DNA from: Nitrosophilus labii
Lineage (GTDB): Bacteria; Campylobacterota; Campylobacteria; Campylobacterales; Nitratiruptoraceae
Direction of reading: 5' to 3'
Assembly (NCBI RefSeq): GCF_014466985.1
Contig: NZ_AP022826.1
Coordinates: 1,178,001 to 1,242,000 of the forward strand
DNA length: 64,000 nt
Shown here: one piece after another, positions 8,421-48,969 of the stretch
Layout of the letters: every line of letters starts with the position of its first letter
How positions within the stretch are numbered: position 1 is the first letter of the stretch
Position numbers and translations under genes: made by a program
The notes under the pieces: generated by a model
What the model saw: only the letters and a program-made list of their open reading frames with translations
Told to the model about the DNA's origin: nothing
Database searches by the model: none

Positions 8421-9000
8421 TTAAACTGGTTTCCGTTTTAGATTATAAGCTGCTGCAAATAAATAGATACATTGACTATTTTTATGAAGACCTATAAATT
8501 TTGTTTGAATATAATTCATTTGTCTTTTAATAAATGCAAATGGTAGTTCAACTATTGCTCTAATTTTAGTAAATTTTTTATTGTTTTTAATCTGTTTTAT
8601 AATCCCTTTAGTATCTGTAGTAATATAAATTTTATATCCATAATATTTATACCTTCTTTTAGAAATACAGCTTGCCCCTTTATCTATAGATTTATTAGTG
8701 ATAATATTACCTTTATCATCTCTCTTGCGTTTAGGCTCTGACGTATGAATCAGTGTAGCATCAACTATTATTATTTCATTAAGAATTAAAACTTTTTTAA
8801 TCATTTTATTTTTTACTTCCTCAAAAATTGCCTCAAATATATTAGCCTTTATCAAAGCATTTCGAAATTTACAGATTGTGGTCTCATCTGGAATAATATC
8901 ATCCTCTGTAATATCTAAAAACTTTACTAAATGAAATTCTGTCATGGATTAACTCTTCTGTCATTGGAACGCTAAATCCATATCAGTTTTGTAAAAAATT
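8421..9000 (-). pseudogene. Decayed IS5-family transposase
   Basis: Minus-strand translation shows IS5-type transposase motifs in the right order: FLDITEDDIIPDETTICKFR, then IIVDATLIHTS (first catalytic Asp), then YYGYKIYITTDTKGII. It then jumps directly to the C-terminal VELPFAFIKRQMN and YLFAAAYNLKR. The segment that should hold the second catalytic Asp (YADKGY-like) is missing, so there is an internal deletion. Upstream of 8945 another frame continues the N-terminal part (PMTEELIHDRISFS), so there is also a frameshift. The element is therefore dead. I could not define its terminal inverted repeats. It sits between capsule genes and next to a glycosyltransferase fragment. Confidence 0.8.
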
Positions 9001-24370: not shown

Positions 24371-25336
24371 ATGAAAAAATTTTTTCTATTTTTTATCTTT
24401 TTTACCTCTTTTATCTTTGCAAATATTATAGACATTTATAGAGAAAAAGGCTCGGAAGCGGCTATAGATATATTGGATAAGGAACTGCAAAAGATTCAAT
24501 ACTGGCAAAAAGTTATAGACGACAAAGATATACGTTTTGGATATTATAGCAATATGGACTATATACTTGTTTGCAATAAAAAAAGAAAAAAACTCGATAT
24601 ATACAAAATAGACAATAAAGAACTTAAAAATATCAAAACTATAAAAGTGATTGTAGGCAAAAACAGCGGCGATAAAGTAAAAGAGGGTGATCTGCGTACA
24701 CCGGTAGGCGTCTATAGGCTCATTAGAAAACTAACAAATCTTGACGACTACTACGGTCCTTTTGCCTTTGTAACCACGTATCCAAATCTTTACGACAAGA
24801 TAAGAGGCAAAAACGGATATGGGATCTGGATACACGGAATGCCTGAAAATTGCGAAAGAGAACCAGATACTAAAGGGTGCATAGCAATGGAAAACGAAGA
24901 GCTTAAAAAACTTGAAAATATGCTAGATCTTAAAAAGACAATCCTACTCATCAACGAAGATAAACCAGACATCGCAAATAAAGAGGAGATTGTTCAGATT
25001 TTATCTATGCTATATAAATGGAGATACGCCTGGAAAAATAGTGACATAAATAGTTACCTACAATTTTACCATCCAAAATTTGTCAGATTTGACGGCAAAA
25101 ATCTCAAAGAGTTTTCCGAAATGAAAAAAAGAATTTTTTCATTAAAGAAAGGACAAAAAATCGAAATAGTTTTTACAAATATCAATATCATTCCCTATCA
25201 AACGCCGGATAACGAAAAGATATATAGAGTAAACTTTCATGAAAAATACCGCTCAAAAAGTTACAGTTTTGAAGGGAACAAAGAGCTTTATGTTGTAAAA
25301 ACTTCAAACAACTGGAAAATCTTGGTAGAGAGATAG
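24371..25336 (+). CDS. csd6: Periplasmic L,D-carboxypeptidase, Csd6/Pgp2-like
   Basis: The 321-residue product has a signal peptide (MKKFFLFFIFFTSFIFA), a YkuD-type catalytic domain and a C-terminal NTF2-like domain (about residues 212-321, WRYAWKNSDINSYLQFYHPKF). This three-part layout is that of Helicobacter Csd6 and Campylobacter Pgp2, which trim peptidoglycan tetrapeptides to tripeptides and control helical shape. The active site is visible as H155 (WIHGMP) and C170 (TKGCIAM). The L,D-carboxypeptidase rather than transpeptidase activity is inferred from the domain layout and the csd4-like neighbour two bases downstream. The start has a strong GGAGG site. Confidence 0.85.
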   Translation: MKKFFLFFIFFTSFIFANIIDIYREKGSEAAIDILDKELQKIQYWQKVIDDKDIRFGYYSNMDYILVCNKKRKKLDIYKIDNKELKNIKTIKVIVGKNSGDKVKEGDLRTPVGVYRLIRKLTNLDDYYGPFAFVTTYPNLYDKIRGKNGYGIWIHGMPENCEREPDTKGCIAMENEELKKLENMLDLKKTILLINEDKPDIANKEEIVQILSMLYKWRYAWKNSDINSYLQFYHPKFVRFDGKNLKEFSEMKKRIFSLKKGQKIEIVFTNINIIPYQTPDNEKIYRVNFHEKYRSKSYSFEGNKELYVVKTSNNWKILVER

Positions 25337-25338
25337 TC

Positions 25339-26625
25339 GTGAGAATTTTGCTGCTACTTTTTATCTTCTCTTCGATTTGGGGAGCAAAACTCCATTTTAA
25401 ACTTTACAAAAAAGAATCACTCAATCCAAGCAATACACTCTTAGTAATAGGCGGCGTCCACGGAGATGAACCCGGAGGCTACTTTGCCGCCTCTTTTTTA
25501 GTAAAGTATTACGTTATAAAAAAAGGGGCTCTTTGGGTAGTTCCAAATCTTAATTTTGATTCGATTGTTAAATTTAGGCGTGGTATATACGGTGATATGA
25601 ACCGAAAATTTGCCACAATCAAAAAAAATGATCCAGACTTTAAAATAGTCAAAGATATAAAAGAGATAATACTCAGTAAAAATGTTGATCTTATTTTAAA
25701 CCTTCACGATGGCAGAGGATATTATAGGGAAAAATGGGAAAATACCATATTTAATCCATACGCATGGGGACAAGCCTGTATCATCGATCAAAAAGAGATA
25801 GACGGTTGCAGATTTGGCAATCTAAACGAAATCGCTCAAAAAGTCAATAGCGCTCTAAATAAAAGATTAAAAAAGAGACATCACGCTTTTCACATAAAAA
25901 ACACAAAAACAAAATTTAAAGATGAGCAGATGAGACTCTCTTTGACATATTTCGCCATTACTCACAATAAACCGGCTCTTGCTATAGAAACAAGCAAACA
26001 TATAAAAGATTTAGCAACAAAAATCTACTATCAGCTAAACGCTATTGAAGAGTTTATGAAGATTTTAGAAATTGAGTTTGAAAGAAAATTTGAACTAAAT
26101 GTAAAAACAATAAATGAGCTGCTAAATAATGACTTGGGAAATATAGTAATAAATAAAAATACTGTTTTACCATTGAAAAATATTAAAAAAAGTGTTAGAT
26201 TTTTCCCTATGACGGGAAAAAACATCCATTACGAGAGCAAGGATCCGTTAGTAACGGTAATAAAAGCGGGAAAAAACTACGCTATTTATAGAGCCTATAA
26301 AAAGCTAACCACCTTATATCCCCAATATTTTAAACCTGATTGCAAAATCAAAAATGTCACTTTTGAAGTTGACGAAAATAAAAAATATATACCAATTCCC
26401 TCAATTATCAACGTTAAGAAAAGTTTTAAAGTTTTAGCTAGCAACGATATAAGGGTAAACGTTATAGGTTACAGCAAAAAAGGTTTTAAAAATGAAAACG
26501 GTATTGAGATAGAAAAAAAAGAGTGTCAAGACAGATACTCTATAGATAAACTGCATAAAAAATATAGAGTTGAGTTTTATAAAGACAAGAGCTTTTGCGG
26601 CTCTGTTATAGTCTCATTTGAATAG
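25339..26625 (+). CDS. csd4: Peptidoglycan D,L-carboxypeptidase, Csd4/Pgp1-like (M14 family)
   Basis: The 428-residue product is a secreted zinc carboxypeptidase. After a short signal peptide (MRILLLLFIFSSIWG) comes the metal motif GGVHGDEPGG (H41, E44), then LNLHDGRGYY with H123, and PALAIETSKHI with the likely catalytic Glu. Two C-terminal beta domains follow. This matches Csd4/Pgp1, which cut tripeptides to dipeptides and produce helical cells. The published H. pylori Csd4 has Gln where this protein has H41, so this one has the ordinary M14 ligand set. It starts with GTG two bases after the csd6-like stop, so both are co-translated. Its stop is only 2 bases from the stop of the convergent gene at 26628. 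Confidence 0.85.
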   Translation: MRILLLLFIFSSIWGAKLHFKLYKKESLNPSNTLLVIGGVHGDEPGGYFAASFLVKYYVIKKGALWVVPNLNFDSIVKFRRGIYGDMNRKFATIKKNDPDFKIVKDIKEIILSKNVDLILNLHDGRGYYREKWENTIFNPYAWGQACIIDQKEIDGCRFGNLNEIAQKVNSALNKRLKKRHHAFHIKNTKTKFKDEQMRLSLTYFAITHNKPALAIETSKHIKDLATKIYYQLNAIEEFMKILEIEFERKFELNVKTINELLNNDLGNIVINKNTVLPLKNIKKSVRFFPMTGKNIHYESKDPLVTVIKAGKNYAIYRAYKKLTTLYPQYFKPDCKIKNVTFEVDENKKYIPIPSIINVKKSFKVLASNDIRVNVIGYSKKGFKNENGIEIEKKECQDRYSIDKLHKKYRVEFYKDKSFCGSVIVSFE

Positions 26626-26627
26626 TA

Positions 26628-27623
26628 TCAATCTATCTTAATCCTCTTAAACTCATAAAAAGCTGGTTTTGGTTTTCCGTTTGCCTTTTTGATACCGAAA
26701 AACTTTTCGGCTTTGCCAAAATAACCATTATGCTTAGGAAAATCAATAAAATGAAAAAGATTTACCCCCATTAAGTCAGAACTAGCTCTAAAAAGCGGCA
26801 AAAGTTTTTTAAACTCCCTCACAACCTTTTTTTGGATTATTTCACCGTTTTTCCCGTAGGAAGAAATCGCTAAATAGGCCAAAAAAGTCGGTTTTTTATA
26901 GGTTTTATGTAGATATGTGGCAAAAGCCAACGCTCTTAAAGGAGCATCTAAAATCTCTTCTGTAGAGTTTTTATTTAACGCTCTCATCTCTTGAAATGCT
27001 ATAAAATCGGCTATTTTGGCACTGTATAACATGGAAGGTTTATACAACTTCCAATTTTTTTCATCCCAAATAACCGAATAGTCTCCAAAATCGCCTAAAC
27101 ATATACCAACCAAGGCTTCCGGGTTCTCTTTTTTTATCAAAAAAATGGAGTTTATCTGTAAAAGGTCAAACTCCCTACTATTTACTATACCGTTTTCATT
27201 AAACTCCGGATTTAGGATAACTATCTTTTTACCTTTAATCTTTTGGAGATATTGTGAAAATCTTTTCAAAGTTTGAAAGTACTCTTTTTTATGTTTTTTT
27301 ACGAAGGATGGAGAAATATCATCTGCAAACCAGTAGAATATAAAAATAGGCACATAACCTTTTTGAACCAATTTGCCGTTTATCTCTTTTTCAGAGTACC
27401 ACCCCTCTTTCCAGTCTCTTGTTATCCACATAGATACAGCGTTAACGTTTGGTAACTCCTTTTTTAAAAGAGTGGCAATATTTTTTCTTTTATCTATAGA
27501 GCACTGTTTGAAATAAGAGGCTCCATATCTATTTTCGCATACTTTAAAGCCGCCTACTCCTAAAACAAACTCCGAAGCAACTAAGTTTAAAGATATTAGC
27601 GTTAAATAAACAAATATTCTCAT
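26628..27623 (-). CDS. Secreted TIM-barrel-like glycoside hydrolase candidate
   Basis: The 331-residue product has a signal peptide (MRIFVYLTLISLNLVAS) and alternating strand/helix segments that suggest a single (beta/alpha)8 domain. Strand-end acidic residues are visible in SMWITRDWKEGWY, VILNPEFNENG, ICLGDFGDYS and FIAFQEMRAL. The NPEFNENG stretch is a candidate acid/base site. I do not recognise the family. It ends the seven-gene exopolysaccharide operon, directly after the deacetylase. PelA of the Pel system carries a TIM-barrel hydrolase and a deacetylase in one chain, so this protein may be the hydrolase half encoded separately. The function is inferred from fold pattern and position. 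Confidence 0.6.
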   Translation of the reverse strand: MRIFVYLTLISLNLVASEFVLGVGGFKVCENRYGASYFKQCSIDKRKNIATLLKKELPNVNAVSMWITRDWKEGWYSEKEINGKLVQKGYVPIFIFYWFADDISPSFVKKHKKEYFQTLKRFSQYLQKIKGKKIVILNPEFNENGIVNSREFDLLQINSIFLIKKENPEALVGICLGDFGDYSVIWDEKNWKLYKPSMLYSAKIADFIAFQEMRALNKNSTEEILDAPLRALAFATYLHKTYKKPTFLAYLAISSYGKNGEIIQKKVVREFKKLLPLFRASSDLMGVNLFHFIDFPKHNGYFGKAEKFFGIKKANGKPKPAFYEFKRIKID

Positions 27624-27628
27624 CGATT

Positions 27629-29428
27629 TTACTCATAAGGGATTATTAAAGTTATCACTGAATTTGGTTTTAGTTCTTTGACTCTTATATCACTGAACTT
27701 CTCTTTTTTATCTCTTTTAATCTCTTCTACTTTAATATTTAGTATTTCAGAGCTGATTTTACCAATCTTTTTAAGATTGTGCCAATAGAGTCTAAACGTA
27801 AAATTTTTTACAGAAGTATCGTTTCTATTTTCTATGTTTACAAATATATTTTTTAGATTTTTTTTATAAAAAAGATCAATATTTTTTAACTGTCTGGCCC
27901 TTATCGCCAAATCTCTACCCTTTAACGGTTTGATATCTTTTCTTGTTTGTAAATATTTAAAAAATTTTTCAACTATATTGATATTGTTTTTATAACTTAA
28001 CAAATGAGTGTGGATACTTAAAGTATAAAGGACATTAAAAGAGGTTAAAAGCTCCGTCTCATAAATAATCTGATTTAAGATAGCATCTTTATCCCAATCA
28101 AGATTTATAAGATATATATAATCATCCGTACCGTGTCTAGGCAGAGTTATCAAACCCGGAATCTCCTCTTTTGGTAGTAGATAATCTTTTGAGCGCTCCA
28201 TAGTATATAAATAACCCGATTCTCTTAACCAATAGATCATCTTTTCATCAATCTCTTCTCGAGGCGGTCTAAACCCGTAAACTTTCTCTCCGGTAATATC
28301 TTCTAAAACTTTTTTAGAATAAGCTATCTCTTTTTCTACTTTTTTTTCGTTTTCCCCTGATATTTTAGTATGAGAGTAGCTGTGGGAGCCAATCTCTATA
28401 TGAGAAAAGGCAGCTACTTCTTTAGTTATATCCGAATACTGCTCGGCCAAGTTTGCTACGCAAAAAAGAGTAGTATCGATGCCGTACTTTTGAGCTAGAG
28501 TAGCATAACGTTTTAAATTTTCATATTTATACTCGGTATCTTCGGATATAAATATGGCCTTTTTAGTGTCTAGATATGGATACTTTGCCAATGAAACGGG
28601 CTCGTTTAAATAGTTTGTTATATTTTTCATCAATAACTCAAATTCATTTAACGGCATATCTAAAAAAGAGTATAACGGAAAACTAAAGTATATCCAACTC
28701 CCTTTACCGTACAATCCGTGCCAAACTATACCAGCTTGCTTCATAGGAACCTTTTTATTGTCGAACATAGGTGTAGATGTAACAGCCCAGTTAGTTAGTA
28801 CCGCATCTGGAGTATTCTCTTTTGATTCAAAAAGGGGTATAGAGTCGTATAGTATCAAATCAAATCTTTTAGCATCTTCATTAGATAACATTATAGGCGA
28901 TAAAATTTTTGGTATAAAAAATAGCCCTTTTTTGTTTTTTACGTTTTTAATATATCTCAATCCGGTTATAGCTTCAATCAATTTACTGCCTTGATAAATC
29001 TTTTTGTTTTGAAAATAGGCAAAATGGTAGTTAAAAAGTAGATTTCCCCCTCTTTTTAAAAAGTTAAGTATTGCCCCGCTACTCTCTTTTGACAAGGCAA
29101 ATATATCTAAAGCTAAAATAGTACTCGTTGCCGGCAAACTATCTACATTCGACTCTCTTATAACATCATACTTGACCCCTATCTTTTCTAGACGTCTCTT
29201 AAACTTACTTAAACGATCTAAATAACTATCTTTATTATAACCCGTATCTTGCAAAAACTTAAGAGTCTCATCAGATACCAAAATATAAACATTTGAGCAC
29301 TTCTGCGTCGAAAACAATATATTTGACGATATTTTCGTATCGGGAAGTAGATTATAAAAAATAGTGCCGGATATTATAATAAACAAAAATATATAAAAAA
29401 AAACAAATGGGCCATATCGGTTATACAC
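27629..29428 (-). CDS. Membrane-anchored polysaccharide deacetylase with GATase-like domain
   Basis: The product (about 599 residues) has one N-terminal membrane helix and then a periplasmic region. First comes a Rossmann/GATase-like domain (about 45-270, with GGNLLFNYHFAYF and GKGSWIYFSFPLY). A NodB deacetylase domain follows (about 290-480) with FISEDTEY (metal Asp), the zinc motif HSYSH, RPPREE, and a late SIHTHLL His. A C-terminal beta-sandwich ends the chain. It should remove acetyl groups from a secreted amino-sugar polymer. The GATase-like plus NodB plus beta-sandwich order resembles PelA without its hydrolase. The GTG at 29428 is chosen because GGGAG lies 6 bases upstream; it falls just after the stop of the small membrane protein gene. 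Confidence 0.82.
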   Translation of the reverse strand: MYNRYGPFVFFYIFLFIIISGTIFYNLLPDTKISSNILFSTQKCSNVYILVSDETLKFLQDTGYNKDSYLDRLSKFKRRLEKIGVKYDVIRESNVDSLPATSTILALDIFALSKESSGAILNFLKRGGNLLFNYHFAYFQNKKIYQGSKLIEAITGLRYIKNVKNKKGLFFIPKILSPIMLSNEDAKRFDLILYDSIPLFESKENTPDAVLTNWAVTSTPMFDNKKVPMKQAGIVWHGLYGKGSWIYFSFPLYSFLDMPLNEFELLMKNITNYLNEPVSLAKYPYLDTKKAIFISEDTEYKYENLKRYATLAQKYGIDTTLFCVANLAEQYSDITKEVAAFSHIEIGSHSYSHTKISGENEKKVEKEIAYSKKVLEDITGEKVYGFRPPREEIDEKMIYWLRESGYLYTMERSKDYLLPKEEIPGLITLPRHGTDDYIYLINLDWDKDAILNQIIYETELLTSFNVLYTLSIHTHLLSYKNNINIVEKFFKYLQTRKDIKPLKGRDLAIRARQLKNIDLFYKKNLKNIFVNIENRNDTSVKNFTFRLYWHNLKKIGKISSEILNIKVEEIKRDKKEKFSDIRVKELKPNSVITLIIPYE

Positions 29429-29438
29429 TTTTTGCTCC

Positions 29439-29621
29439 CTACTCAAAATATACATATTCATCGCCTACTTGCTTAAGTGCCTCCTCGTACGTAATCCCTT
29501 TGGATAAGTTTTTTTTCTTTTTTTCTCTGGCTTTATATAGAAAATAGGCGATAACACCAAAGACCAATGTCATTATCGTTATAATTAAAATCAGTACAGA
29601 CAAAAAACCGAGTAGATTCAT
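29439..29621 (-). CDS. 60-residue single-span membrane protein of the polysaccharide operon
   Basis: The product has one membrane helix (about residues 4-28), a Lys-rich patch (KAREKKKKNLSK) that should face the cytoplasm, and a short acidic tail ending ALKQVGDEYVYFE. The start overlaps the synthase stop codon (ATGA), and the stop is directly followed by the ribosome site of the deacetylase gene, so it is a real coupled gene. Its place right after the GT2 synthase suggests a small synthase partner, like PgaD in position but half its size and with one helix instead of two. I do not recognise the family. Confidence 0.72.
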   Translation of the reverse strand: MNLLGFLSVLILIITIMTLVFGVIAYFLYKAREKKKKNLSKGITYEEALKQVGDEYVYFE

Positions 29622-30931
29622 AAATTTCCTTTTCTTTCAAGTTTTCCCCAGCTCATCTCTATACCGTACCACTCCTCAATAGTCGCCAATATCTTTGAAA
29701 TATTTATAATCGTAATAAAAAAAAGCCGATAAAAAACAGCATAAAAAACTAAAGAGAGCTTTTCACCGGTTATAAGTACACAATACAATGCTCCTGCCAT
29801 ATCTAAAATAGTAAACATTGCCCACCAAAAAAAGATTAGCATACTTACACCGGATATCAAAGCCAAATATATCATAAAAATATTTGCCCAAATATCCATA
29901 AACGGCCAAAAAACCGCTTCAAAAAGCATATACCAAAGCACAAATGAAACTGAGGGAGATTTTTTAAAGTTCCAAAGCAGTTTCCTGTGCTTTCTAATGG
30001 ATTGCAATATACCCCTTGTCCATCTGTAGCGCTGTTTTATAAGATCAAGTAGATGTTCTGGTACTTCAGTATATGCTATCGCATCTGATTCAAACTCTAT
30101 CTTATAACCATTTGCAATCAGTTTAAGAGTCACATCGCAATCTTCCGCAAATGTATCGTCATCATACATGCCAACTTCTATCAGTGCGCTCTTTCGAAAC
30201 ATTCCTATAGGACCCGGAATAATATTGACAAGCTTCAAAAAAGCTTGTCCGTTTCTTACCATATTAAGTCCTTCTATATACTCAAGGGCTTGGAGTTTGG
30301 TAAGAAGACTATTTTGATTGCTAACATAAACCGATCCCGCAACAGCCGCAATCTCTTCATCGTTAAAATAAGCAGCCATCAACAATACGGCGTTTTTATC
30401 CAGTTTTGAATCCGCATCTACTACCATTATCAATTCTCCGCTTGCATGCTCTATCCCGAAATTTATAGCATTCGCTTTGCCTCCGTTTTTCTTCCTATAA
30501 ACCTTCAAACTTCTGCTACTCTTTGTAAACTCTAACTTCTTTGCTTTAACATAAGTTCTATCTTTTGAACCGTCATCAATAACCAATATCTCCAAATTTG
30601 GATATGTCTGCTCAATTAACGATTGTAACGACTTTTCTATCACAACCTCCTCGTTAAAAGCTGGCACTATTATAGTAACTCTTTTAAGTTCACCCTTTTG
30701 TGGTTTATCTTCTTCATCTGCACTCTTTTGAATAGTCTTTAATATTGAGAAAAAAAGCAATAACATATATCTCAATATTACTAGCGTGGTAAAAAAAAGA
30801 ACAATACCAACACCTATCTGAACAAAAATATTTTGTATATGATAAAAATAGTTATAATAAAAATATAGTAAACTACCAAGAGCTAAAATTAAAAAGAGGC
30901 TTAAAAAGATTACTATAAAACCCTTTATCAC
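29618..30931 (-). CDS. Processive GT2 polysaccharide synthase (PgaC-like)
   Basis: The product (about 437 residues) has two N-terminal membrane helices, a cytoplasmic GT2 domain and about four C-terminal membrane segments. The catalytic motifs are complete: IIVPAFNEE, VIDDGSKD, VVDADSKLD, FAEDCDVTLK and QRYRWTRG (the QxxRW motif of processive enzymes). It should polymerise and extrude a beta-linked polymer, most like poly-N-acetylglucosamine because a deacetylase follows; the sugar is inferred. The GTG at 30931 is preferred since it overlaps the exporter stop as GTGA with AAGGA upstream, whereas an ATG 27 bases earlier lacks a site. No PilZ domain is present. Confidence 0.88.
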   Translation of the reverse strand: MIKGFIVIFLSLFLILALGSLLYFYYNYFYHIQNIFVQIGVGIVLFFTTLVILRYMLLLFFSILKTIQKSADEEDKPQKGELKRVTIIVPAFNEEVVIEKSLQSLIEQTYPNLEILVIDDGSKDRTYVKAKKLEFTKSSRSLKVYRKKNGGKANAINFGIEHASGELIMVVDADSKLDKNAVLLMAAYFNDEEIAAVAGSVYVSNQNSLLTKLQALEYIEGLNMVRNGQAFLKLVNIIPGPIGMFRKSALIEVGMYDDDTFAEDCDVTLKLIANGYKIEFESDAIAYTEVPEHLLDLIKQRYRWTRGILQSIRKHRKLLWNFKKSPSVSFVLWYMLFEAVFWPFMDIWANIFMIYLALISGVSMLIFFWWAMFTILDMAGALYCVLITGEKLSLVFYAVFYRLFFITIINISKILATIEEWYGIEMSWGKLERKGNL

Positions 30932-33900
30932 CACATCTTCCTTACATGCAAACCACACTCTAAACTCTGATATCCCGTTTGCGTACCAGAGGTAGAGCTA
31001 TTGCTAAAATCGCACCCTATCTCCGCAAAATATTTTATAGTTGAATCACTCTTTAACCAAAATCCGGCTTTATAAAGCAAAGTCTCTTCCCAAAAACTGT
31101 AACCCAACGCCCCTTTTACTTGAAGAGTTAACTTTTTATTTATCGGATAATAGGCTTTTATACCGATTAGATTGTTGTCAATTTTATCAGGTGAGTAATA
31201 ACAAGAAGTTGTTTTGTCGTTAAATTGATACCATCCGGATAGATAGTATATAGAGTCTAACTTACCAAAACTCTTATCATAAAACTCATAATCAAATTGG
31301 GGAGTTAAAACCCTATTATCATCTTCAATATCTTCATAAGCCAAAGACCACCATAATCCTCTCTTATGACTTAACTGTCTATAACCGCTTACTTCACCCT
31401 TTACTCTCATAAGCTCTTTTGAACAACAAGTTCTTCTTGAATAGACAAGATTTTTTCTATCTAGTTTAAAAGTTAAACTATTTCCCAAAAAAAGAGTATT
31501 ATAGCCCAAACTCCACCCGGTTTTACTGTTTGAGCCGCTTTTATCAAAAACAACATCTCCAAAATAGTTCTCTTTTTTTAAACCTAATCCATAGTAGTTA
31601 CCGCTACAACTCTCATCGTTATCAGTTAGATTATACCCCTTTAAAAAGGCGTAAATCCAAAAAGTATTGTTTATATTTTTTGAAATCTTTAAACTATGGG
31701 TTAACATATCTATATCCTGATTGTCGTGAAAATAGTCTAAACCGCCCTCTATCTCCCAATCATTACTATCTATATTTTTCTCTTTTTTTACATACATTTT
31801 GGGTACGACTTTTTTCTTAGTTAATTTTACCGGTTCCAAATGAGTGATGTTTAATACTTTTTCCTCCTGTTTAGGATTTTTTTTAACATCTTTATCCAAC
31901 TCTATACTTTTACCTTTTACATTCTCTTTTTTATCACCTTTTTTTTTCCTCTTTTCAATCTCTTTTAGACGCTCTTTTATGTAAAACTCCAAACTGCTAT
32001 CTTTTTTGTACGGAGTATATTTTCCCGGCTTCCAACTCTCTTTTAATATTTTGCAACGATAATCCTCACACTTAATGAGCAGAGTTTTATACCCTTCATC
32101 TTTTTTAATCTTTGAAGCGTACACTTGATAAAACTTAACTTCATATAGGTTTCCCGCTTTAGAAACCAAAAGCGGATCGTAAATAGATACGGAAACAAAT
32201 CCATTTTTTCTAAAAAGAGCCTCTTTTTTCAATCTCCAAGCCGTATTTTTTGCAATTTTATCATCGTAAAAATTTATATACTCTTTTATATCCATCGACT
32301 CCCAAGCTTTTTTCCACTCCTCTAAAAATTTTTTAATAAAAGGAAGAACCGGTTTTGGAACCTCTTTTATAAGTTTCTTATAAATCTTTTCGGCTTTTTT
32401 TATATCTCCCATATTTTGTAGGTTATACGCATAATGATACTCTATCAAGGGAGTCTTTTTAATCCAAAAAAGTAGATAAAACTCTCCCGCTGCTTTTGCG
32501 TAATCTTTAGAAAACTCCAACGCGTAAGCATACTTCTCTCTTGCCTCGTAATCTTCCGGTTCAAGCGTTAAATAACTCTTATAGTAGTTAGCCGCACTCT
32601 CATAAAGATTTGCAAAGTAAACCCTATCTGCCATTGCCAAAATCTTTTTGCTCCTATTTTGAAAATATTCATCGATAGTAGCGGAACTTTTTGAAGTTAC
32701 AAATCTTGGGTTGACTTTCAATATCTTCGCTTTTAATAGAGTGGCTTCTTTATAATCTGGATACTTTTTTAAAAGATCGTTTAAAGCTAACAGCGCTTCA
32801 TTATTAAATCCATTCCAGTAGTATCGTAGGGCTAGTTGATAAAAAGACTCTTTTGTATTTAAATAGTTAGCGTAATACTCCCAGTAGCCAAACCCTTTAT
32901 AATACTCTTTCAGCTCCAAGTAAATATCGCCGAGAGTTTTATATATTTCTATTTTTTCCGGATGCAGTTTTAGATACTTTTCATAATAGTTTGCCGCTTT
33001 TTTATACTCTTTTATCATATAATAGTAATCGGCCAATTTTAAGATAATTGTCTCATTTGTTGGATCTTTAGCCAACTCTTTCTCATACTTTTTTATAAGT
33101 GGTTTAACCTCACCTTTAATAACCAATAAAGACTCTTTAACCTCTTCATCATTAGGATTGTTTTTTAGTATAGCTTCAAAAATCTCTTTCGCTTTACCTT
33201 TTTGATCTCTCCACATATAGACATATCCTAACATCTTTTTTGCTTCATATTTTTGTTTTTCAGTTCCGTTAGCGTAAACATCAGATAGAAAATGAACGGC
33301 TCTATCATAATCTCCCTGCCAAGCAAGTATCTTGCCAAATAGAAGTTTGGCTCTATTGTCGTCACTCTCTTGAAACTTCGCTAAAAGTTTCATAGCCTCT
33401 TTATTATCGCCTCTCCAAGAGAGTATCTTTGCTAGAAACAATATCGCGTTTTTATCGGTAGGATTCTCTTTTATGTATCCTTTTATAAGAGAGATAGCTT
33501 TTTTAGGATCTTCGTTATAGAGTATATAAGCTAAAGTTTGCATGTTTTCAAATGATGGATCTTTTTTATATTTATCCCACAAATTTTGCAAATACTTTCT
33601 TTCAAGTTTATCGATTTTCTCTTGGTACTTTAAGATCAAATCGCTCTTTTTTATACGCTTTAAAGAGTAAAGTATCTTTTTTGCCTGCTCAATTTCACCA
33701 ATGGCTATATAGATATCTAAAAGTTTTTCACCATACTCCAAATCTCCCGTAGCTTGAAAAAGATATTGATAGTACTTTTTTGCACACTTAAATCTCGATA
33801 AGTAGTAGCAGTCTGCCGCTTTTATCTCAAAAAAATCCAAACTTTTTTTATCTTTTACTTTTTTCAAAACTTTTAAAGAAAGGTTATACTCTCCTTCCCA

Positions 33901-34329
33901 CATAGCAACTCTCGCTATTTTAATATAAGAGGAGTCTTTAAATAGATTCTCTTTTGAAGTATAAAGAAGATTAAATTTTTTATAAAAATTCAAAAGCTCT
34001 TTATATCTGCTTTTTCGGTATAACTCTTCAATTAAATTATCTAAATTTTTATGATTTTGTATAAACGAAGATATATATTCGGCCGCATTTATCTTTTGTA
34101 ACATACTTTTTGCATATTTGTTGGTAGGCTCAACTTTTAAAATCTCTTTCAATAATTTTTTTGCCTCTTCATACTGATTTTTTTCTAAAAAATATCTTGC
34201 TAAAACCAATCTGTTTTCTACATCTTTAGGATTATTTGATACTTTTTTCATCAATGTTGAAACATCTAAATCAAGAGCATAGCCACTAGTAAAAAATATC
34301 AAAAAAACCAAAGTTAATATCTTTTTCAT
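30928..34329 (-). CDS. TPR and beta-barrel outer-membrane polysaccharide exporter (PgaA/PelB-like)
   Basis: The 1133-residue product has a signal peptide (MKKILTLVFLIFFTSGYA), a long array of TPR units (about residues 30-660, for example YEEAKKLLKEILKVEPTN and YKKAANYYEKYLKLHPE), then an NTF2-like domain (about 668-770, EEWKKAWESMDIKEYINFYD). A Lys-rich linker follows, and a C-terminal barrel of about 16 strands (about 870-1133) with alternating aromatic strands. TPR plus barrel is the architecture of PgaA, PelB and BcsC. The NTF2-like domain resembles the one in the Csd6-like protein at 24371-25336 and is not a known part of those exporters as far as I know. Stop-start overlaps couple it to both neighbours. 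Confidence 0.85.
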   Translation of the reverse strand: MKKILTLVFLIFFTSGYALDLDVSTLMKKVSNNPKDVENRLVLARYFLEKNQYEEAKKLLKEILKVEPTNKYAKSMLQKINAAEYISSFIQNHKNLDNLIEELYRKSRYKELLNFYKKFNLLYTSKENLFKDSSYIKIARVAMWEGEYNLSLKVLKKVKDKKSLDFFEIKAADCYYLSRFKCAKKYYQYLFQATGDLEYGEKLLDIYIAIGEIEQAKKILYSLKRIKKSDLILKYQEKIDKLERKYLQNLWDKYKKDPSFENMQTLAYILYNEDPKKAISLIKGYIKENPTDKNAILFLAKILSWRGDNKEAMKLLAKFQESDDNRAKLLFGKILAWQGDYDRAVHFLSDVYANGTEKQKYEAKKMLGYVYMWRDQKGKAKEIFEAILKNNPNDEEVKESLLVIKGEVKPLIKKYEKELAKDPTNETIILKLADYYYMIKEYKKAANYYEKYLKLHPEKIEIYKTLGDIYLELKEYYKGFGYWEYYANYLNTKESFYQLALRYYWNGFNNEALLALNDLLKKYPDYKEATLLKAKILKVNPRFVTSKSSATIDEYFQNRSKKILAMADRVYFANLYESAANYYKSYLTLEPEDYEAREKYAYALEFSKDYAKAAGEFYLLFWIKKTPLIEYHYAYNLQNMGDIKKAEKIYKKLIKEVPKPVLPFIKKFLEEWKKAWESMDIKEYINFYDDKIAKNTAWRLKKEALFRKNGFVSVSIYDPLLVSKAGNLYEVKFYQVYASKIKKDEGYKTLLIKCEDYRCKILKESWKPGKYTPYKKDSSLEFYIKERLKEIEKRKKKGDKKENVKGKSIELDKDVKKNPKQEEKVLNITHLEPVKLTKKKVVPKMYVKKEKNIDSNDWEIEGGLDYFHDNQDIDMLTHSLKISKNINNTFWIYAFLKGYNLTDNDESCSGNYYGLGLKKENYFGDVVFDKSGSNSKTGWSLGYNTLFLGNSLTFKLDRKNLVYSRRTCCSKELMRVKGEVSGYRQLSHKRGLWWSLAYEDIEDDNRVLTPQFDYEFYDKSFGKLDSIYYLSGWYQFNDKTTSCYYSPDKIDNNLIGIKAYYPINKKLTLQVKGALGYSFWEETLLYKAGFWLKSDSTIKYFAEIGCDFSNSSTSGTQTGYQSLECGLHVRKMW

Positions 34330-35726
34330 TTTTTACATATCTCCTCTTTATGTTCTTTCCATATTGTTGTATCGATTATATGTTCTGTTTCAAAAAAGTT
34401 CTCTTTAGTTTCGTCAGTAAAAGCTTTCATTTTGTCTATTACCGTTTTGGCTATCTCCTTTCTGAGACTTATCAAACAAAATATAACTCTTTTCTCATCA
34501 TAAAACATTATATCTTTCTCTCTTATTTTTGAAAACAGAATCTCTTTGGAAATATTAGTTTTTGCCGAAATTATGCTAGCGTAGATTCTATTGTGCCAAA
34601 AACCGTCGATTATATTGCAAAAATGTTGTAAATTTTTTATAATCTCCATATTGTTTGGAAGCTGCTGTATTAAAGTAGTATAAAAATGGTTTTGTATAAT
34701 TCTCTCCAATGTCAAAATGTACTCTTCAAATATAAAATTTTTAGAAAATATCTCGTAACAACCGGCATTTATCGCATTCATTTTATCACTTTGCCTAACA
34801 TATTCTTTGTTTACTATGTAAATAAGTTTAGATCTTAAATTGTTATTTTTTATGATAGTGCAAACCTCAAGATCGTAACTCTCATCAGGCGGATTGTAAA
34901 TGATCAGATCTGGTCCCTCAAGTATCTTCTGGATAGTCTCTGAAAGCGATGAAGCTGTATCAAAAATATAACTCTCTCGATCAAATAAGAATCTATGTAA
35001 ATTTATTAGTTCCGTATCTTGCGAAATGAGCAAAATCTTTTTTAAAGGTTTTTCTGCTTGAGTTTCTTGTGTAACAAGATTTGACGTTTCATTTTCTTTT
35101 AAAGGTTTTAGTTTTAGAGTTTTATTTTCTAATTGAAAAAGATATCTTAAATGTTGTACAGGAAAAATTGAACTTTGAACTTTTATCTCAATACGATTCT
35201 CTTTTTCTATATATAGATTCATATCTGTATAATTTTCTAAAATCTCATTAATAAAGTTGTTTGGATTATTGGAAGCAGATGAAGTTATTAAAAGTTTTAT
35301 ATCATACAACTCTTTAATCTCTATAAGCTCCTCTATAAACTGCTCCGCATCATCTCTCTCTTGTATTTCAAAAAAAAGATCAAGTCTATGAAAAAGTAGT
35401 GTTTTACAGCTATCTTTTTCGATAACCCTTTTTATATCCTCTATCATAAATTTATATCCAAATCTTCTTTTTAGCTCTTTGAAATTCTCTTTTAAACAGA
35501 GGATATTCATCGAATTTATGATATTAGCAACTTTTTTATCTCCCAAATACGCAATCGCACTTAATCTTTTTAACATCAAGGATTTTGGAAAAGATGAAAA
35601 CATAACTAAACTGTTATCATAAAAAATATTTGCTGTTATAAACAGAGAAAACGTCAATTTACCACTTTTGTTTTCACCTTCTATTGAAACAAGTTCCGAT
35701 TTTTTTATTGCATTCTCAATAGTCAT
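34326..35726 (-). CDS. RecA-like/pseudo-receiver/degenerate GGDEF protein with BcsE-like layout
   Basis: The product (about 466 residues) has three parts. Residues 1-190 look RecA/KaiC-like with a weak P-loop (GENKSGKLT) and a CKTLLFHRLDLFF strand. Residues about 232-350 form a receiver fold (KKILLISQDTE, then DLIIYNPP) in which the phospho-acceptor Asp is replaced by Asn, so it is a pseudo-receiver. The tail keeps the pattern of a GGDEF domain (KIREKDIMFYDEKRVIFCLI) but lacks the GGDEF residues. BcsE, a c-di-GMP-binding cellulose regulator, has the same order of domains, so a regulatory subunit of the synthase is a reasonable inference. I see no RxGD site. The second ATG (35726) is preferred because AAGGA precedes it. 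Confidence 0.65.
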   Translation of the reverse strand: MTIENAIKKSELVSIEGENKSGKLTFSLFITANIFYDNSLVMFSSFPKSLMLKRLSAIAYLGDKKVANIINSMNILCLKENFKELKRRFGYKFMIEDIKRVIEKDSCKTLLFHRLDLFFEIQERDDAEQFIEELIEIKELYDIKLLITSSASNNPNNFINEILENYTDMNLYIEKENRIEIKVQSSIFPVQHLRYLFQLENKTLKLKPLKENETSNLVTQETQAEKPLKKILLISQDTELINLHRFLFDRESYIFDTASSLSETIQKILEGPDLIIYNPPDESYDLEVCTIIKNNNLRSKLIYIVNKEYVRQSDKMNAINAGCYEIFSKNFIFEEYILTLERIIQNHFYTTLIQQLPNNMEIIKNLQHFCNIIDGFWHNRIYASIISAKTNISKEILFSKIREKDIMFYDEKRVIFCLISLRKEIAKTVIDKMKAFTDETKENFFETEHIIDTTIWKEHKEEICKK

Positions 35727-37611
35727 AACCATTCCTTAATAATTCTTCAAAGGTTTTTATTAAAAATTTATCCCCTTTTTGTTTTTGCAATCTAAGCATC
35801 AAATCTAGGGCAACTTTATCTTTTGGACAGATCTCTAAAACCCTCCACAAATATTTTTCCGAATTTTTAAGATCCTTTAACTCAAAATAGCTTTTTGCCA
35901 ATACTAGATAAAGTTTTGATGAGTTTTTATACTTTGTAGATAAGAGTAGATGGTTTGCACTTTTAATTGCCTCTTTATACTTCTTCAATCGATATAGTGT
36001 TTTAACTTTCCAAAAATGATCTTCGTCTTTATCGCCAATTTCAATAGCCTTTTGAAAAAATTTTAACGCCTTTAAATACATCTTTTGTTTATAAAATATC
36101 TCTCCATATAGAGTATATGGCCTTGAGTCTACTTCGTTGATTGTTGAAATACTCTTTTTGATAAAAACTGTAGCAAGCAGCAAATCATTCTCTTCAAAGG
36201 CTTTTTTAGCTTTCAAGTAGTTTGTAAGAGACAATATTTTTGTTCTCTTTGGCATACTAAAAAGTTTTTTCTCTTCGGCTTGAACCAAAAAGTACCATAT
36301 TCCGTCGTCTAAAGAGTTAAATCTAACCTCTTTTTTTGAACTAGAAATAACTCTACCAGGCAATGTAAAAAATTTATCCCTACTTGCTATAACTCTAAAA
36401 CTTTTATAAGGACTTATCCAGCTAAGAGTAATAACGCCTTCTTTATTTCTATTTATTCTAAGACCTTCAACAGCTTTTGGTAATGGACTCTTTTTAAAGC
36501 CTTTTTGAGTGTAGATAACTCCTTCATTTTGTTTTACCTTTAAATCTTTTGAAGCTACCGCACCTTTATATACGCTAACGGAAGTCTCTTTCTCATCAAC
36601 GATCGTCTCAAATTCGGTTCCAAGATTTTGCCAAACACTTTTTTTAGTATAAACCGTTACCGGATTTGAGGCGGTCGTTAGATAAAGATTGGCTTTATCT
36701 AAGGATATCTCTGTTCTCGTTTTTGTATTGAAAAGATTTTTGTAAGCAAAAATTTCGTATCTATCGTTTTTATAAAAACGTGCGACCAAATCATTTTCCA
36801 GATGCAAAACTATCTGTTCGCCGGATGCTTTTACATCAATCTTTTGAGGTACTAGACAGTAGTAATAGTCTAAACCAAAAAGTACCGCTACACTTGCAGC
36901 GGCCAAAATGGCAGATAGGCGTTTTATTTTTATCTGTTTTGATATATTTGGAAGATAGATGTAAAACGTTGTTCCAACATCCGGTTTGCTTTGAAGTTCA
37001 AGCCTGCCTCCAAAACTCTCGATTACCCGTTTGCTCATAGTAAGGCCAAGACCTGTTCCGGAATTTTTCTCAGATGTGCTAAAGTATTTATCAAAGATTT
37101 TGACCGCTTCCTCTTGCGTTAACCCTTTTCCGGTATCCTCTATCTTCAATAACCACCACGATTTGTATTTTACGATAGATATAGCTACTTTTCCATCTTT
37201 TTTGTTGTATTTGACCGCGTTATGAACTATATTGAAAAGAGCCTTTTTAAGCCAAAGTCTATTGGCTATAATCTTAGTTTCATTAGAATCGCTAAATATG
37301 AAAAGTTTAACTTTTTGGACTTGTAAATCCGGTTCAAGCTCATATTTAATTTCGTAAAAAAGCTTAACAATATCTATAGACTCTTGTTTTAATCTTCTGT
37401 TTTGTTTAAATCGCTGCAACTCTATAAAATCTTGAAGCATATCTATTGTTTTCTCTACAGATAATAGCGCATTTTTTAGAAGTTTCTCTTTTTCTAACCG
37501 ATCTTCAATCACATTGTTTATAAGTAGGCTTAAGCTAAAACGTATAGTTCCGAGTTTATTTTTAATGTCGTGATAAAAAGCGCTGGCAAAAGATTGAGTT
37601 TTTTTCAGCAC
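35716..37611 (-). CDS. Histidine kinase with C-terminal periplasmic FecR/TPR region
   Basis: The 631-residue product starts directly with the dimerisation/phospho-acceptor helix (H14 in FYHDIKNKLG). It is followed by a complete HATPase domain (NIVHNAVKYN, IEDTGKGLT, GTGLGLTMSK). A single membrane helix follows at about 236-255, then a FecR-like domain (about 260-385, with WQNLGTEFETIVDEKETSVSVYKGA), a beta-rich segment and C-terminal TPR units (about 480-631). Kinase-first order is the reverse of ordinary sensor kinases. Its likely partner is the OmpR-type regulator at 39064. It starts with GTG, preceded by AAGGT, and heads the seven-gene polysaccharide operon. Confidence 0.85.
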   Translation of the reverse strand: MLKKTQSFASAFYHDIKNKLGTIRFSLSLLINNVIEDRLEKEKLLKNALLSVEKTIDMLQDFIELQRFKQNRRLKQESIDIVKLFYEIKYELEPDLQVQKVKLFIFSDSNETKIIANRLWLKKALFNIVHNAVKYNKKDGKVAISIVKYKSWWLLKIEDTGKGLTQEEAVKIFDKYFSTSEKNSGTGLGLTMSKRVIESFGGRLELQSKPDVGTTFYIYLPNISKQIKIKRLSAILAAASVAVLFGLDYYYCLVPQKIDVKASGEQIVLHLENDLVARFYKNDRYEIFAYKNLFNTKTRTEISLDKANLYLTTASNPVTVYTKKSVWQNLGTEFETIVDEKETSVSVYKGAVASKDLKVKQNEGVIYTQKGFKKSPLPKAVEGLRINRNKEGVITLSWISPYKSFRVIASRDKFFTLPGRVISSSKKEVRFNSLDDGIWYFLVQAEEKKLFSMPKRTKILSLTNYLKAKKAFEENDLLLATVFIKKSISTINEVDSRPYTLYGEIFYKQKMYLKALKFFQKAIEIGDKDEDHFWKVKTLYRLKKYKEAIKSANHLLLSTKYKNSSKLYLVLAKSYFELKDLKNSEKYLWRVLEICPKDKVALDLMLRLQKQKGDKFLIKTFEELLRNGYDY

Positions 37612-37740: not shown

Positions 37741-38991
37741 CTATTTTGTAAAAAGTTGCGCTTCTACTCTTCTATTTTTAGCTCTACCGCTTTCAGTATC
37801 GTTACTTGCAATAGGTTTTTCTTCACCATAACCTACATAAGTAAGTCTATCTGCTTCCACTCCAAATTTTATCAACATATCATATACTGATTTGGCTCGT
37901 TGCAAGGATAATTTTTTATTATATCTATTTGAGCCTTTGTTATCGGTATGTCCTTGGATCTCGGCTTTGTATGTTCTATTTTCTTTCATAAACTCGGCAA
38001 ACTCTTCTATTTTAGATAGATATTTGGATTTGATTTTTGCGCTATTGAAATCAAAATTTATCATAAAGTTATATACTATAGGACAACCTTGTTGATCCAC
38101 ATCAAAGCCTTCTGGAGTATCCAAACACTTATCTTTAAAATCTGGAACACCGTCATTATCACTATCTACACAACATCCATTCTCATCAACTTTTGCTCCT
38201 TTTGGAGTATTAGGACACTTATCTTTAAAATCCACTACACCGTCATTATCGCTATCTAAACAGCAACCATTCTCATCAACTTCAACTCCCACCGGAGTAG
38301 CAGGACATCTATCTTTATAATCGTACACTCCGTCTTTATCGCTATCCGGAGGACATCCATCAGGACCAACCTTTATTCCAAACGGAGTATTAGGACATAA
38401 ATCGTCACTATCGACAACTCCGTCTTTATCGCTATCTTCCGGTTTTACAATAGGCTTAGGAGCAGATTTAGGTTCGTATCCGAATGGTATCGATAAACCG
38501 GCACTTACGATAAAGTCGTTAGTGGCATTCTCAAAATCTCTAAGAAATTTCCCTTCCAACAAAAATTGCAGATGTTGAGTTATATCTGTTTTAAAACCTA
38601 TTCCGGCTTGAGCAACAATGCCGCTTTTAGCATTTTGCAACTCTCTTTCAAAATCCTGATATCCTAACCCGGTTATTAGATAAGGAGTATATTCTTTGTT
38701 AGAATCTATTTCGTAAAATGCGTTAATAAAATATCTATCTATATCGGTTTTAGCGCTTATATTTTCAAATTTGGCATTATTAGTTTTCATATATCCTAAA
38801 CCCGCCATCCAATTATGTGATAACCTTTTATTTGCTCTAACGCCAAACGTTTTAAGGTGTTCCTCCAATACGCTATCCTCTCCTGTAAACTCGACGGAAC
38901 CTATTGTTTGCAGTTCATAATTGTAAGTATCGGCAACCATACCGCTACATAAAATATGCAATACTCCGGCAAAAAAGAGTGTTTTTTTCAT
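37741..38991 (-). CDS. OmpA-family protein with thrombospondin type 3 repeats
   Basis: The product (about 416 residues) has a signal peptide (MKKTLFFAGVLHILCSGMVA), an N-terminal OmpA-like barrel (about 20-165), and a linker of four Ca-binding thrombospondin type 3 repeats (DSDKDGVVDSDDLCPNTP and relatives). An OmpA C-terminal peptidoglycan-binding domain follows (FDFNSAKIKSKY to AEIQGHTDNKGSNRYNKKLS). It tethers the outer membrane to the cell wall. The ATG at 38991 is preferred over one 24 bases upstream because GGGGGT lies before it. It sits between the response regulator and the kinase genes, so it may be part of the envelope-sensing unit, though it may simply be a neighbour. Confidence 0.9.
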   Translation of the reverse strand: MKKTLFFAGVLHILCSGMVADTYNYELQTIGSVEFTGEDSVLEEHLKTFGVRANKRLSHNWMAGLGYMKTNNAKFENISAKTDIDRYFINAFYEIDSNKEYTPYLITGLGYQDFERELQNAKSGIVAQAGIGFKTDITQHLQFLLEGKFLRDFENATNDFIVSAGLSIPFGYEPKSAPKPIVKPEDSDKDGVVDSDDLCPNTPFGIKVGPDGCPPDSDKDGVYDYKDRCPATPVGVEVDENGCCLDSDNDGVVDFKDKCPNTPKGAKVDENGCCVDSDNDGVPDFKDKCLDTPEGFDVDQQGCPIVYNFMINFDFNSAKIKSKYLSKIEEFAEFMKENRTYKAEIQGHTDNKGSNRYNKKLSLQRAKSVYDMLIKFGVEADRLTYVGYGEEKPIASNDTESGRAKNRRVEAQLFTK

Positions 38992-39063
38992 TTTTATAAC
39001 CCCCATTTTTTTCAAAATATTGTACTTTATGTAGATGATATGAAAATGACAGATTTTAGAGGG

Positions 39064-39711
39064 TTATAATATAGCGTATCCGATCTCTCGTTTGGATACA
39101 ATGACATTTGATTCTTGTAGTTTTTTTCTTAGTCTATTAACTAGAGCGGCAACGGTATTGTTTGGAACACTCTCTTCCCAAACATACTCTGCAATAGTTT
39201 GCGGGGACAAAAATCTTCCTTTATTTCGAAGCAAAAATTCTAACAGTTTTGTTTCAGTGCGGCTTAAAACAACAGGAGTGTAGGAGTTATAAAGCATTCT
39301 TGCGCTCCAATCGTAATAATATCTATCTCCAAAATGTTGGAGATTTTTTTGCAATAGTTTAAAAATACGATTTACTCTTAAAAGAAGCTCCTCCGGATTG
39401 AAAGGTTTTTTTATAAAATCTTCAGCTCCAAGTTCAAAAGAGGTTCTGATATTTTCTATTTCAGTATGTCCGGAAATTATTAAAATCTTTGACTCTTCTT
39501 TTATTTGAGGAAAAGACTTAAGCATTTTAAGAGCGTTTCCATCCGGTAAAGATATATCCAAAATTATCAAATCTATAGGCTTTATAGAATCTATTTGTTT
39601 TATAAACATATCAATAGTATCAAAATTATATACCGTATGTCCATTTGCTTCAAGCAATAGTTTTATAGCGTAACTTAACCCAGCTTCATCTTCTAGTATT
39701 ACAATTTTCAT
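39064..39711 (-). CDS. OmpR/PhoB-type response regulator
   Basis: The 215-residue product has an intact receiver domain (acidic pair E7/D8, phospho-acceptor D52 in LIILDISLPDG, Lys in FIKKPF). A winged-helix DNA-binding domain follows (VVLSRTETKLLEFLLRNKGRFLSP, then NTVAALVNRLRKKL). It probably regulates the polysaccharide and OmpA genes downstream and is phosphorylated by the kinase at 35716-37611; that pairing rests only on proximity. No other kinase lies in the window. Confidence 0.9.
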   Translation of the reverse strand: MKIVILEDEAGLSYAIKLLLEANGHTVYNFDTIDMFIKQIDSIKPIDLIILDISLPDGNALKMLKSFPQIKEESKILIISGHTEIENIRTSFELGAEDFIKKPFNPEELLLRVNRIFKLLQKNLQHFGDRYYYDWSARMLYNSYTPVVLSRTETKLLEFLLRNKGRFLSPQTIAEYVWEESVPNNTVAALVNRLRKKLQESNVIVSKREIGYAIL

Positions 39712-48767: not shown

Positions 48768-48969
48768 AATGTGTTCTTTACAATTCACAGCCAATAGCAC
48801 CGATGAAGAATATCTGCTGTTCCTTGTCATGAGATGACCCAACAAAGCCTATTTGGATTCGAGCCAACCTGAATATACCTATGAAACGCTATTGGGAACA
48901 GTTGTTGTTCACCATTCCATAGATTCAGGAGGCTGTGTAAGGTTCGAATCAAAGATGAAGGAGTCAAGC
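48768..48969 (+). ncRNA. Candidate bridge RNA region of the IS110 element
   Basis: About 200 noncoding bases lie between the left end and the transposase ATG at 48970. IS110-group elements encode their bridge RNA in exactly this place. An open frame crosses part of the region by chance, but the family's usual start is at 48970 with GGAG just upstream. Two pieces recur: GGATTCGA near 48851 and GGTTCGAATC near 48940. The RNA call is by position only. Confidence 0.35.

Follow-up and report, generated by a model that had tools for sequence, protein, structure and literature searches.

BcsE has been reported as a regulator of cellulose synthesis (PMC11470070). In Escherichia coli, its REC* and GGDEF* domains each carry an RxxD motif (R306xxD and R415xxD), which jointly bind an intercalated dimer of cyclic di-GMP (c-di-GMP), and BcsF, a protein of 63 residues with one transmembrane (TM) helix, extends the sheet of the NTPase* domain of BcsE by a strand from its cytosolic tail (PMC11470070). 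E. coli BcsE acts together with BcsQ, BcsR and the cellulose synthase, and the role of the BcsE-BcsF pair itself is therefore hard to separate. Here we describe a run of seven genes in Nitrosophilus labii in which a BcsE-like protein and a small membrane protein are encoded next to a glycosyltransferase family 2 (GT2) synthase of another kind. The run lies on the minus strand at 26628-37611 of the window, i.e. the 64,000 nucleotides from 1,178,001 to 1,242,000 of contig NZ_AP022826.1, which belong to a complete genome of 2.09 Mb. The named relatives closest to this genome are Nautiliaceae and other metagenome bins of Campylobacterales. The cluster is conserved in bacteria of hydrothermal vents and seems to serve the synthesis, trimming and export of a sticky sugar polymer, controlled by a sensor for a signal molecule. 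With somewhat more confidence than doubt, we suggest that it is a synthase-dependent exopolysaccharide system whose product is an amino-sugar polymer with part of its acetyl groups removed, and that a BcsE-type sensor, anchored by a BcsF-like peptide, gates it.

Gene set, synteny and co-occurrence

All seven open reading frames marked by a sequence-only reading of the window were found at its coordinates. They are listed in the order of transcription, with the evidence for each and its occurrence at the 12 loci compared below (CE4, carbohydrate esterase family 4; AF2, AlphaFold2).

35716..37611, minus strand: histidine kinase of inverted layout (Pfam HATPase_c 3.9e-24, FecR 1.9e-5, TPR; 8 of 12 loci)
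34326..35732, minus strand: BcsE-like predicted c-di-GMP sensor (AF2 model, Foldseek, hhalign; 12 of 12 loci)
30928..34329, minus strand: exporter with signal peptide, long TPR array, NTF2-like domain and putative C-terminal outer-membrane barrel ending in W (Pfam TPR; 12 of 12 loci)
29618..30958, minus strand: processive GT2 synthase with five predicted TM helices (Pfam GT2 1.4e-35; 12 of 12 loci)
29439..29621, minus strand: 60-residue single-TM protein, proposed BcsF-like role (12 of 12 loci)
27629..29461, minus strand: TM-anchored predicted periplasmic deacetylase with GATase-like, NodB/CE4 and C-terminal domains (12 of 12 loci)
26628..27623, minus strand: signal-peptide TIM-barrel protein, glycoside-hydrolase clan A-like fold (AF2, Foldseek, VIA; 10 of 12 loci)

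Neighbouring genes overlap by 17 nt (kinase/BcsE-like), 4 nt (BcsE-like/exporter), 31 nt (exporter/GT2), 4 nt (GT2/60-residue protein) and 23 nt (60-residue protein/deacetylase), and 5 nt separate the deacetylase from the TIM-barrel gene. A terminator-like hairpin (37725-37705, minus strand) lies upstream of the kinase gene, between an OmpA gene and the seven-gene run. Given the tight overlaps and spacing and the hairpin that cuts off the upstream OmpA gene, we read the seven genes as one operon. A promoter scan returned 63 matches, with 54.8 expected.

In a survey of 397 sampled Campylobacterota genomes, searches with strict cut-offs for the GT2 and for the deacetylase picked out an identical set of 10, from 8 genera and four families, and the full-length BcsE-like protein was detected in exactly this set; two further genomes have only a GT2, a distant one at the 1e-40 to 1e-42 border. 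The 10 carriers and two metagenome contigs provide the 12 loci. Genes for the BcsE-like protein, the TPR exporter, the GT2, the 60-residue protein and the deacetylase are present at all 12, the TIM-barrel gene at 10, and the kinase together with a response regulator at 8. The core gene order is kept across the four families despite protein identity as low as 23-36%, so that the synteny for which the sequence-only reading had proposed to search other Campylobacterota does recur. That this order recurs at 12 loci and that three genes co-occur in the same 10 genomes argue against a chance assembly. A decayed or accidental collection of genes without one common function would be in line with the variation of the TIM, kinase and barrel parts between loci and with the patchy distribution (10 of 397); however, the genes are intact and overlapping, their order withstands the low identity and the catalytic motifs are intact, and we hold this explanation to be very improbable indeed. 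No earlier description of the gene set in Campylobacterota was found in the literature searched.

A tree of the BcsE-like protein, the deacetylase and the GT2 joins the window, at support 100, to a genome from a different family and places its congener (G257) next to a third family, making horizontal transfer of the operon, or loss of old copies, likely. In genome G036 the stretch immediately upstream of the operon (L032:12561-19473) encodes an alginate lyase along with TPR, AlgE-like (Alginate_exp) and NosD-like proteins, as if two polymer systems had been joined.

The BcsE-like protein and its proposed small membrane partner

The AF2 model of the BcsE-like protein (pLDDT 85.3) consists of a KaiC/RecA-like domain (residues 1-212), a REC* domain (228-346) and a GGDEF* domain (366-455). 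When this model was compared with 350,542 PDB chains in Foldseek, E. coli BcsE took ranks 1-5 (E 1e-13 to 6e-12) and KaiC, which matches the first domain, ranked below it. In hhalign the REC*-GGDEF* part scored 22.0 against an eight-sequence BcsE alignment, compared with a maximum of 7.8 for 100 column shuffles and 0.3 for the reversed profile. The VIA-align matches of the model were all taken up by KaiC against the first domain (Z up to 18.9) and therefore speak neither for nor against the match to BcsE. By hhalign, two motifs are placed on the c-di-GMP-binding motifs of BcsE:

34785..34796, minus strand: REC* motif R313xxD316, placed on BcsE R306ATD
34512..34523, minus strand: GGDEF* I-site motif R404xxD407, placed on BcsE R415TGD

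Both motifs are invariant in the 12 members, whose identity to the window protein goes down to 23%. The label of a BcsE-like three-domain protein, the strongest point of the sequence-only reading, thus holds for the fold (model, Foldseek) and for both c-di-GMP motifs. The genome of the window encodes 24 GGDEF domains, and those of the other carriers 9-48. From the fold match, the aligned invariant RxxD motifs and these GGDEF domains, we strongly infer that the BcsE-like protein binds c-di-GMP.

Alternatively, the three-domain protein could be a KaiC-like/REC adaptor under kinase or ATP control, with the likeness to BcsE reflecting convergent assembly of common domains. The KaiC matches of the N-terminal domain would fit such an adaptor, as would the Pfam scores of some members to Response_reg and of one to KaiC and the kinase gene adjacent at most loci. 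However, Foldseek places BcsE, aligned over 458-501 columns, above KaiC, both RxxD motifs are among just 21 invariant columns of the family and are also seen in two other genomes, in REC*-GGDEF* proteins that stand alone, and the kinase is missing at some loci; on balance, an adaptor of this kind seems distinctly improbable to us. The stand-alone relatives (L060:9603-10403 in G047 and L061:5726-6535 in G248; 266-269 aa, both RxxD motifs kept) are encoded among genes unlike a polysaccharide cluster and are possibly free-standing c-di-GMP receptors.

The 60-residue protein is composed of one hydrophobic helix, a basic juxtamembrane stretch and a conserved tail, YEExLxxxGxxYxFFE. It is similar to BcsF in size, in its single TM helix and in having a conserved C-terminal tail, and by this analogy we propose that it plays a BcsF-like role in anchoring the BcsE-like protein.

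Synthase, polymer and accessory genes

That the synthase is a processive GT2, as the sequence-only reading had it, was borne out by Pfam and by the motifs DDG, DAD, AED and QRYRW, which are found at 12 of 12 loci. Its best NCBIfam match is PgaC (TIGR03937), with 204.5 bits and hence below the equivalog cut-off of 422.3; the identity to E. coli PgaC is 32% in hhalign, and the CelA model gives 76 bits (cut-off 699). Comparison outside the phylum covered a plasmid collection and one scan of genome contigs. In the plasmid collection the synthase is best matched by the GT2 portions of CE4-GT2 fusions from Prevotella, Deinococcus and Sulfitobacter (33-34% over ~400 residues), and a GH18 domain was detected in two of these fusions (Prevotella, Deinococcus). 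The fusions share with the operon GT2 a C-terminal WG-x-[LI]-x-R-x-G motif, whereas PgaC reaches only 29% over 321 residues and BcsA, which is farther still, 23% over 238. Streptomyces MatB is such a CE4-GT2 fusion and is required for poly-N-acetylglucosamine (PNAG) (PMC5972031). Because of MatB, our best guess for the product is an N-acetylhexosamine polymer, and the amino-sugar polymer of the sequence-only reading is plausible given that the nearest GT2 relatives found are PgaC/NodC-type synthases and GH18-CE4-GT2 fusions.

The deacetylase matches Polysacc_deac_1 (PF01522) with 1.9e-18 and 67 bits, over the cut-off of 23.1, and its catalytic CE4 motifs (HxxxH and RxxP type) are intact at 12 of 12 loci; the fuller set of HxxxH, RPPREE, GTDDY and HTH is present in nearly all members. 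Its N-terminal domain gives a weak match to the GATase-like domain of GH42 enzymes. Of the proposed GATase-NodB architecture, the CE4/NodB half is thus confirmed by Pfam and motifs, and the GATase-like half is suggested by this weak GH42-type match.

A divergent PNAG (pga) system, in which the GT2 and the 60-residue protein would form a PgaC-PgaD-like pair with c-di-GMP at the interface and the BcsE-like protein would be an auxiliary regulator, is an alternative that we consider unlikely. It would account for PgaC as the best NCBIfam match of the GT2, for the position of the 60-residue gene directly after and overlapping the GT2 gene, as pgaD follows pgaC, and for the presence of a TPR-barrel exporter and a deacetylase. 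However, the PgaC score is less than half of the curated cut-off, and the exporter scores 29.8 bits with the NCBIfam PgaA model (TIGR03939), where 366.65 is the equivalog cut-off. Moreover, hhalign gives no similarity of the 60-residue protein to PgaD or of the deacetylase to PgaB, and PgaD has two TM helices rather than one. The other products of the operon are claimed by no NCBIfam model, and no domains of the GT4 synthase PelF or the transporter PelG are found among the seven gene products. BcsB, a core subunit of cellulose machines, was undetected in 9 of the 10 carrier genomes. The tenth (G356) has a BcsB homologue away from the operon (G356:C41:85660-88107), which is perhaps part of a separate cellulose-type system. 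The Pfam search for BcsQ was positive in 14 of 14 control genomes because the model catches general MinD/ParA ATPases. In total, profile searches placed the seven genes in no standard pga or pel operon, and the parts set, which is conserved in synteny, is unclaimed by curated pga, pel or bcs models, in agreement with its description as a candidate new system.

The polymer could also be a different one, e.g. a glucan or a heteropolymer of hexoses and hexosamines; the CE4 protein would then take off O-acetyl groups or have some other substrate. The sugar cannot be read from a GT2 sequence, and Listeria PssC is ~30% identical to PNAG synthases while its product was judged unpredictable from sequence by the authors (PMC4125290); the fold of the TIM-barrel protein, moreover, matches GH-A enzymes acting on neutral glycans. 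Given that BcsA is more distant from the GT2 than PgaC and that the CE4 domain family, by its named matches, mostly acts on N-acetylated sugars, we regard such a different polymer as unlikely.

The AF2 model of the TIM-barrel protein is a (beta/alpha)8 barrel (pLDDT 90.5) and matches GH53, GH5 and PslG in Foldseek (E ~1e-9) and clan GH-A enzymes in VIA (Z 22.6), confirming the barrel of the proposed TIM-barrel-like hydrolase. In this family E140 at the end of beta4 and E212 at beta6 are invariant. The second catalytic Glu, the beta7 nucleophile of clan A, is not there and every member has Ser-Ser-Tyr at this canonical position, which makes hydrolysis uncertain; perhaps the protein is an atypical hydrolase, or it serves in binding instead. 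By sequence, Pfam and NCBIfam gave nothing useful for this protein or for the BcsE-like protein; for the TIM-barrel protein Pfam gave no GH18 and a PDB search only a designed barrel (E 0.057). Paralogues elsewhere in G040 and G130 (L062:9016-10269 and L063:9510-11087; 417 and 525 aa) indicate that the family is wider than the operon.

For the exporter, described as PgaA/PelB-like by the sequence-only reading, the TPRs are found and a barrel-like C-terminal region is putative, but kinship with PgaA amounts to generic TPR similarity. The C-terminal region has no PDB sequence match; it was not found at L031, and in L032 and L038 two separate genes encode the TPRs and the C-terminal region. Between the TPRs and this region stands a domain that was absent from the previous description:

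32038..32337, minus strand: NTF2-like domain of the Csd6 C-terminal type, exporter residues 665-764 (Pfam Cds6_C 2.1e-12)

Pfam puts this domain and the C-terminal domain of the product of the neighbouring Csd6-type gene into one family, and BLASTP shows similarity to that product (E 1e-5). The Csd6-like gene (YkuD + NTF2) and a Csd4-like gene (peptidase M99), i.e. cell-shape genes, occupy 24371-26625 and converge on the operon; at L035 and L006, too, both are found beside the operon.

Upstream of the kinase gene lie two further genes:

37741-39015: OmpA-family protein containing TSP_3 repeats, which intervenes between kinase and regulator only at L006 and in the window
39064..39711, minus strand: OmpR-type response regulator, probable partner of the kinase (Pfam; adjoins the kinase at all 8 kinase loci)

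The kinase has an N-terminal cytoplasmic HisKA/HATPase part with H, N, G1 and G2 boxes, one TM helix (~227-245) and then predicted periplasmic FecR and TPR domains. It is absent at three loci with readable upstream sequence; L038 begins close to a contig end and its upstream genes are not readable. This absence suggests that the kinase is a local addition and that c-di-GMP, acting via the BcsE-like protein, is more likely the core control of the system. The envelope-sensing control previously ascribed to the kinase thus falls outside the conserved core.

A Group 2 capsule-type cluster (3177-24073) adjoins the operon on the same strand, with two Capsule_synth genes, Poly_export, an ABC-2 permease and a pyruvyl transferase. 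G+C dips to 0.22-0.27 across 6-16 kb of the window, compared with 0.32-0.35 on either side. The window also contains three transposase remnants: a DDE_Tnp_1 fragment (8421-8945), an IS110 N-terminal part (48853-49323) and a Mutator-type transposase split over two overlapping open reading frames (51875-53090).

Proposed mechanism and comparison with known systems

Combining these data, we suggest a model for a BcsE-gated exopolysaccharide machine: (i) the GT2 would polymerise N-acetylhexosamine, probably N-acetylglucosamine, from a UDP-sugar and pass it across the inner membrane, (ii) the BcsE-like protein would bind a c-di-GMP dimer between REC* (R313xxD316) and GGDEF* (R404xxD407), (iii) the 60-residue protein would hold it at the membrane beside the synthase, its conserved C-terminal tail pairing with the KaiC-like domain in the manner of BcsF and BcsE, and (iv) the membrane-held, c-di-GMP-bound protein would gate the synthase. 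In the periplasm, the TM-anchored deacetylase would strip acetyl groups, the TPR-barrel protein would guide the polymer out and the TIM-barrel protein would trim or bind it; the kinase-regulator pair, where present, would set expression. The data show the gene set, its synteny and co-occurrence, the folds of two of the proteins and the conservation of the motifs; from these we infer c-di-GMP binding, membrane recruitment, the identity of the polymer, the analogy to BcsF and the order of these steps.

Several points weigh against this model. Pfam BcsE (PF10995) gives no match in the 12 BcsE-like members or in 21 genomes, for which reason we name the protein BcsE-like and do not file it as BcsE. 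Full-length TM-scores to BcsE are low (~0.28), since domain orientations differ, and the hhalign probability to BcsE is low (3-16%). The operon has no BcsQ or BcsR gene, the 60-residue protein gives no hhalign signal to BcsF, and CE4 motif 1 of the deacetylase reads SED, with Glu replacing the usual first Asp. Since its gene comes straight after that of the GT2, with an overlap, the 60-residue protein could also be a PgaD/IcaD-type partner of the GT2, which is the main alternative for its role.

If the BcsE-gated model is correct, the BcsE-type sensor, so far described only in cellulose machines, would be a portable switch for polymer synthesis. We lean slightly towards the view that a BcsE-BcsF-type c-di-GMP module has here been joined to a PgaC-like amino-sugar synthase in the absence of BcsB, BcsQ and BcsR, that this module is a portable GT2 control unit and that the operon adds one more type to the synthase-dependent exopolysaccharide machines. 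In a natural system that has a BcsE-like sensor with a small membrane partner and lacks BcsQ, BcsR and BcsB genes, the core function of the pair could be tested directly, and the operon could serve as a compact thermophilic model for how c-di-GMP gates a GT2 synthase. Nautiliaceae and their relatives would thereby also gain a candidate matrix polymer. The genome paper on Nautilia profundicola relates attached life to polyamines, flagella and pili and has exopolysaccharide only as a general c-di-GMP output (PMC2628731).

Among the described systems, the operon shares with type II Bcs of E. coli (BcsRQABEFG-C) an NTPase*-REC*-GGDEF* protein with both RxxD motifs, a single-TM protein of ~60 residues, a TPR exporter and a membrane GT2. 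In contrast to Bcs, it is without BcsB, BcsQ, BcsR and BcsG genes, its GT2 is PgaC-like without a PilZ domain, it has a CE4 deacetylase and its exporter carries an NTF2 domain. With the PNAG systems PgaABCD and IcaADBC it has in common a PgaC-like GT2 followed by a small membrane protein, a deacetylase and a TPR-barrel exporter; however, all tested scores are below the equivalog cut-offs, the deacetylase is TM-anchored with an N-terminal GATase-like domain, the TIM-barrel protein is separate and a BcsE-type sensor is added. Similarly, Pel (PelABCDEFG) combines a TPR-barrel exporter, a deacetylase and a degenerate GGDEF c-di-GMP receptor with an RxxD site, but its synthase is the soluble GT4 PelF with PelG, whereas that of the operon is a membrane GT2, and its sensor is the membrane GAF-GGDEF protein PelD instead of a soluble protein of the BcsE type.

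Nearest in concept are pssA-E of Listeria and ydaJKLMN of Bacillus, which comprise a PgaC-like GT2, a degenerate-GGDEF c-di-GMP receptor and a separate hydrolase. They differ in being Gram-positive systems for which neither a BcsE fold nor a TPR/outer-membrane exporter has been reported, and pss has a BcsB orthologue (PMC4125290). The GH18-CE4-GT2 fusions and Streptomyces MatB contain the nearest GT2 relatives found outside the phylum, with the C-terminal motif in common, and likewise bring together TIM-barrel, CE4 and GT2 activities. In the fusions these reside in one chain, and the inspected fusions have no BcsE-like gene annotated alongside; in the operon they are divided among three neighbouring genes and the TIM-barrel protein is not GH18 by Pfam. 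By the features tested, the operon belongs to none of Bcs, Pga and Pel, and its gene content suggests that it works like a synthase-dependent exopolysaccharide machine.

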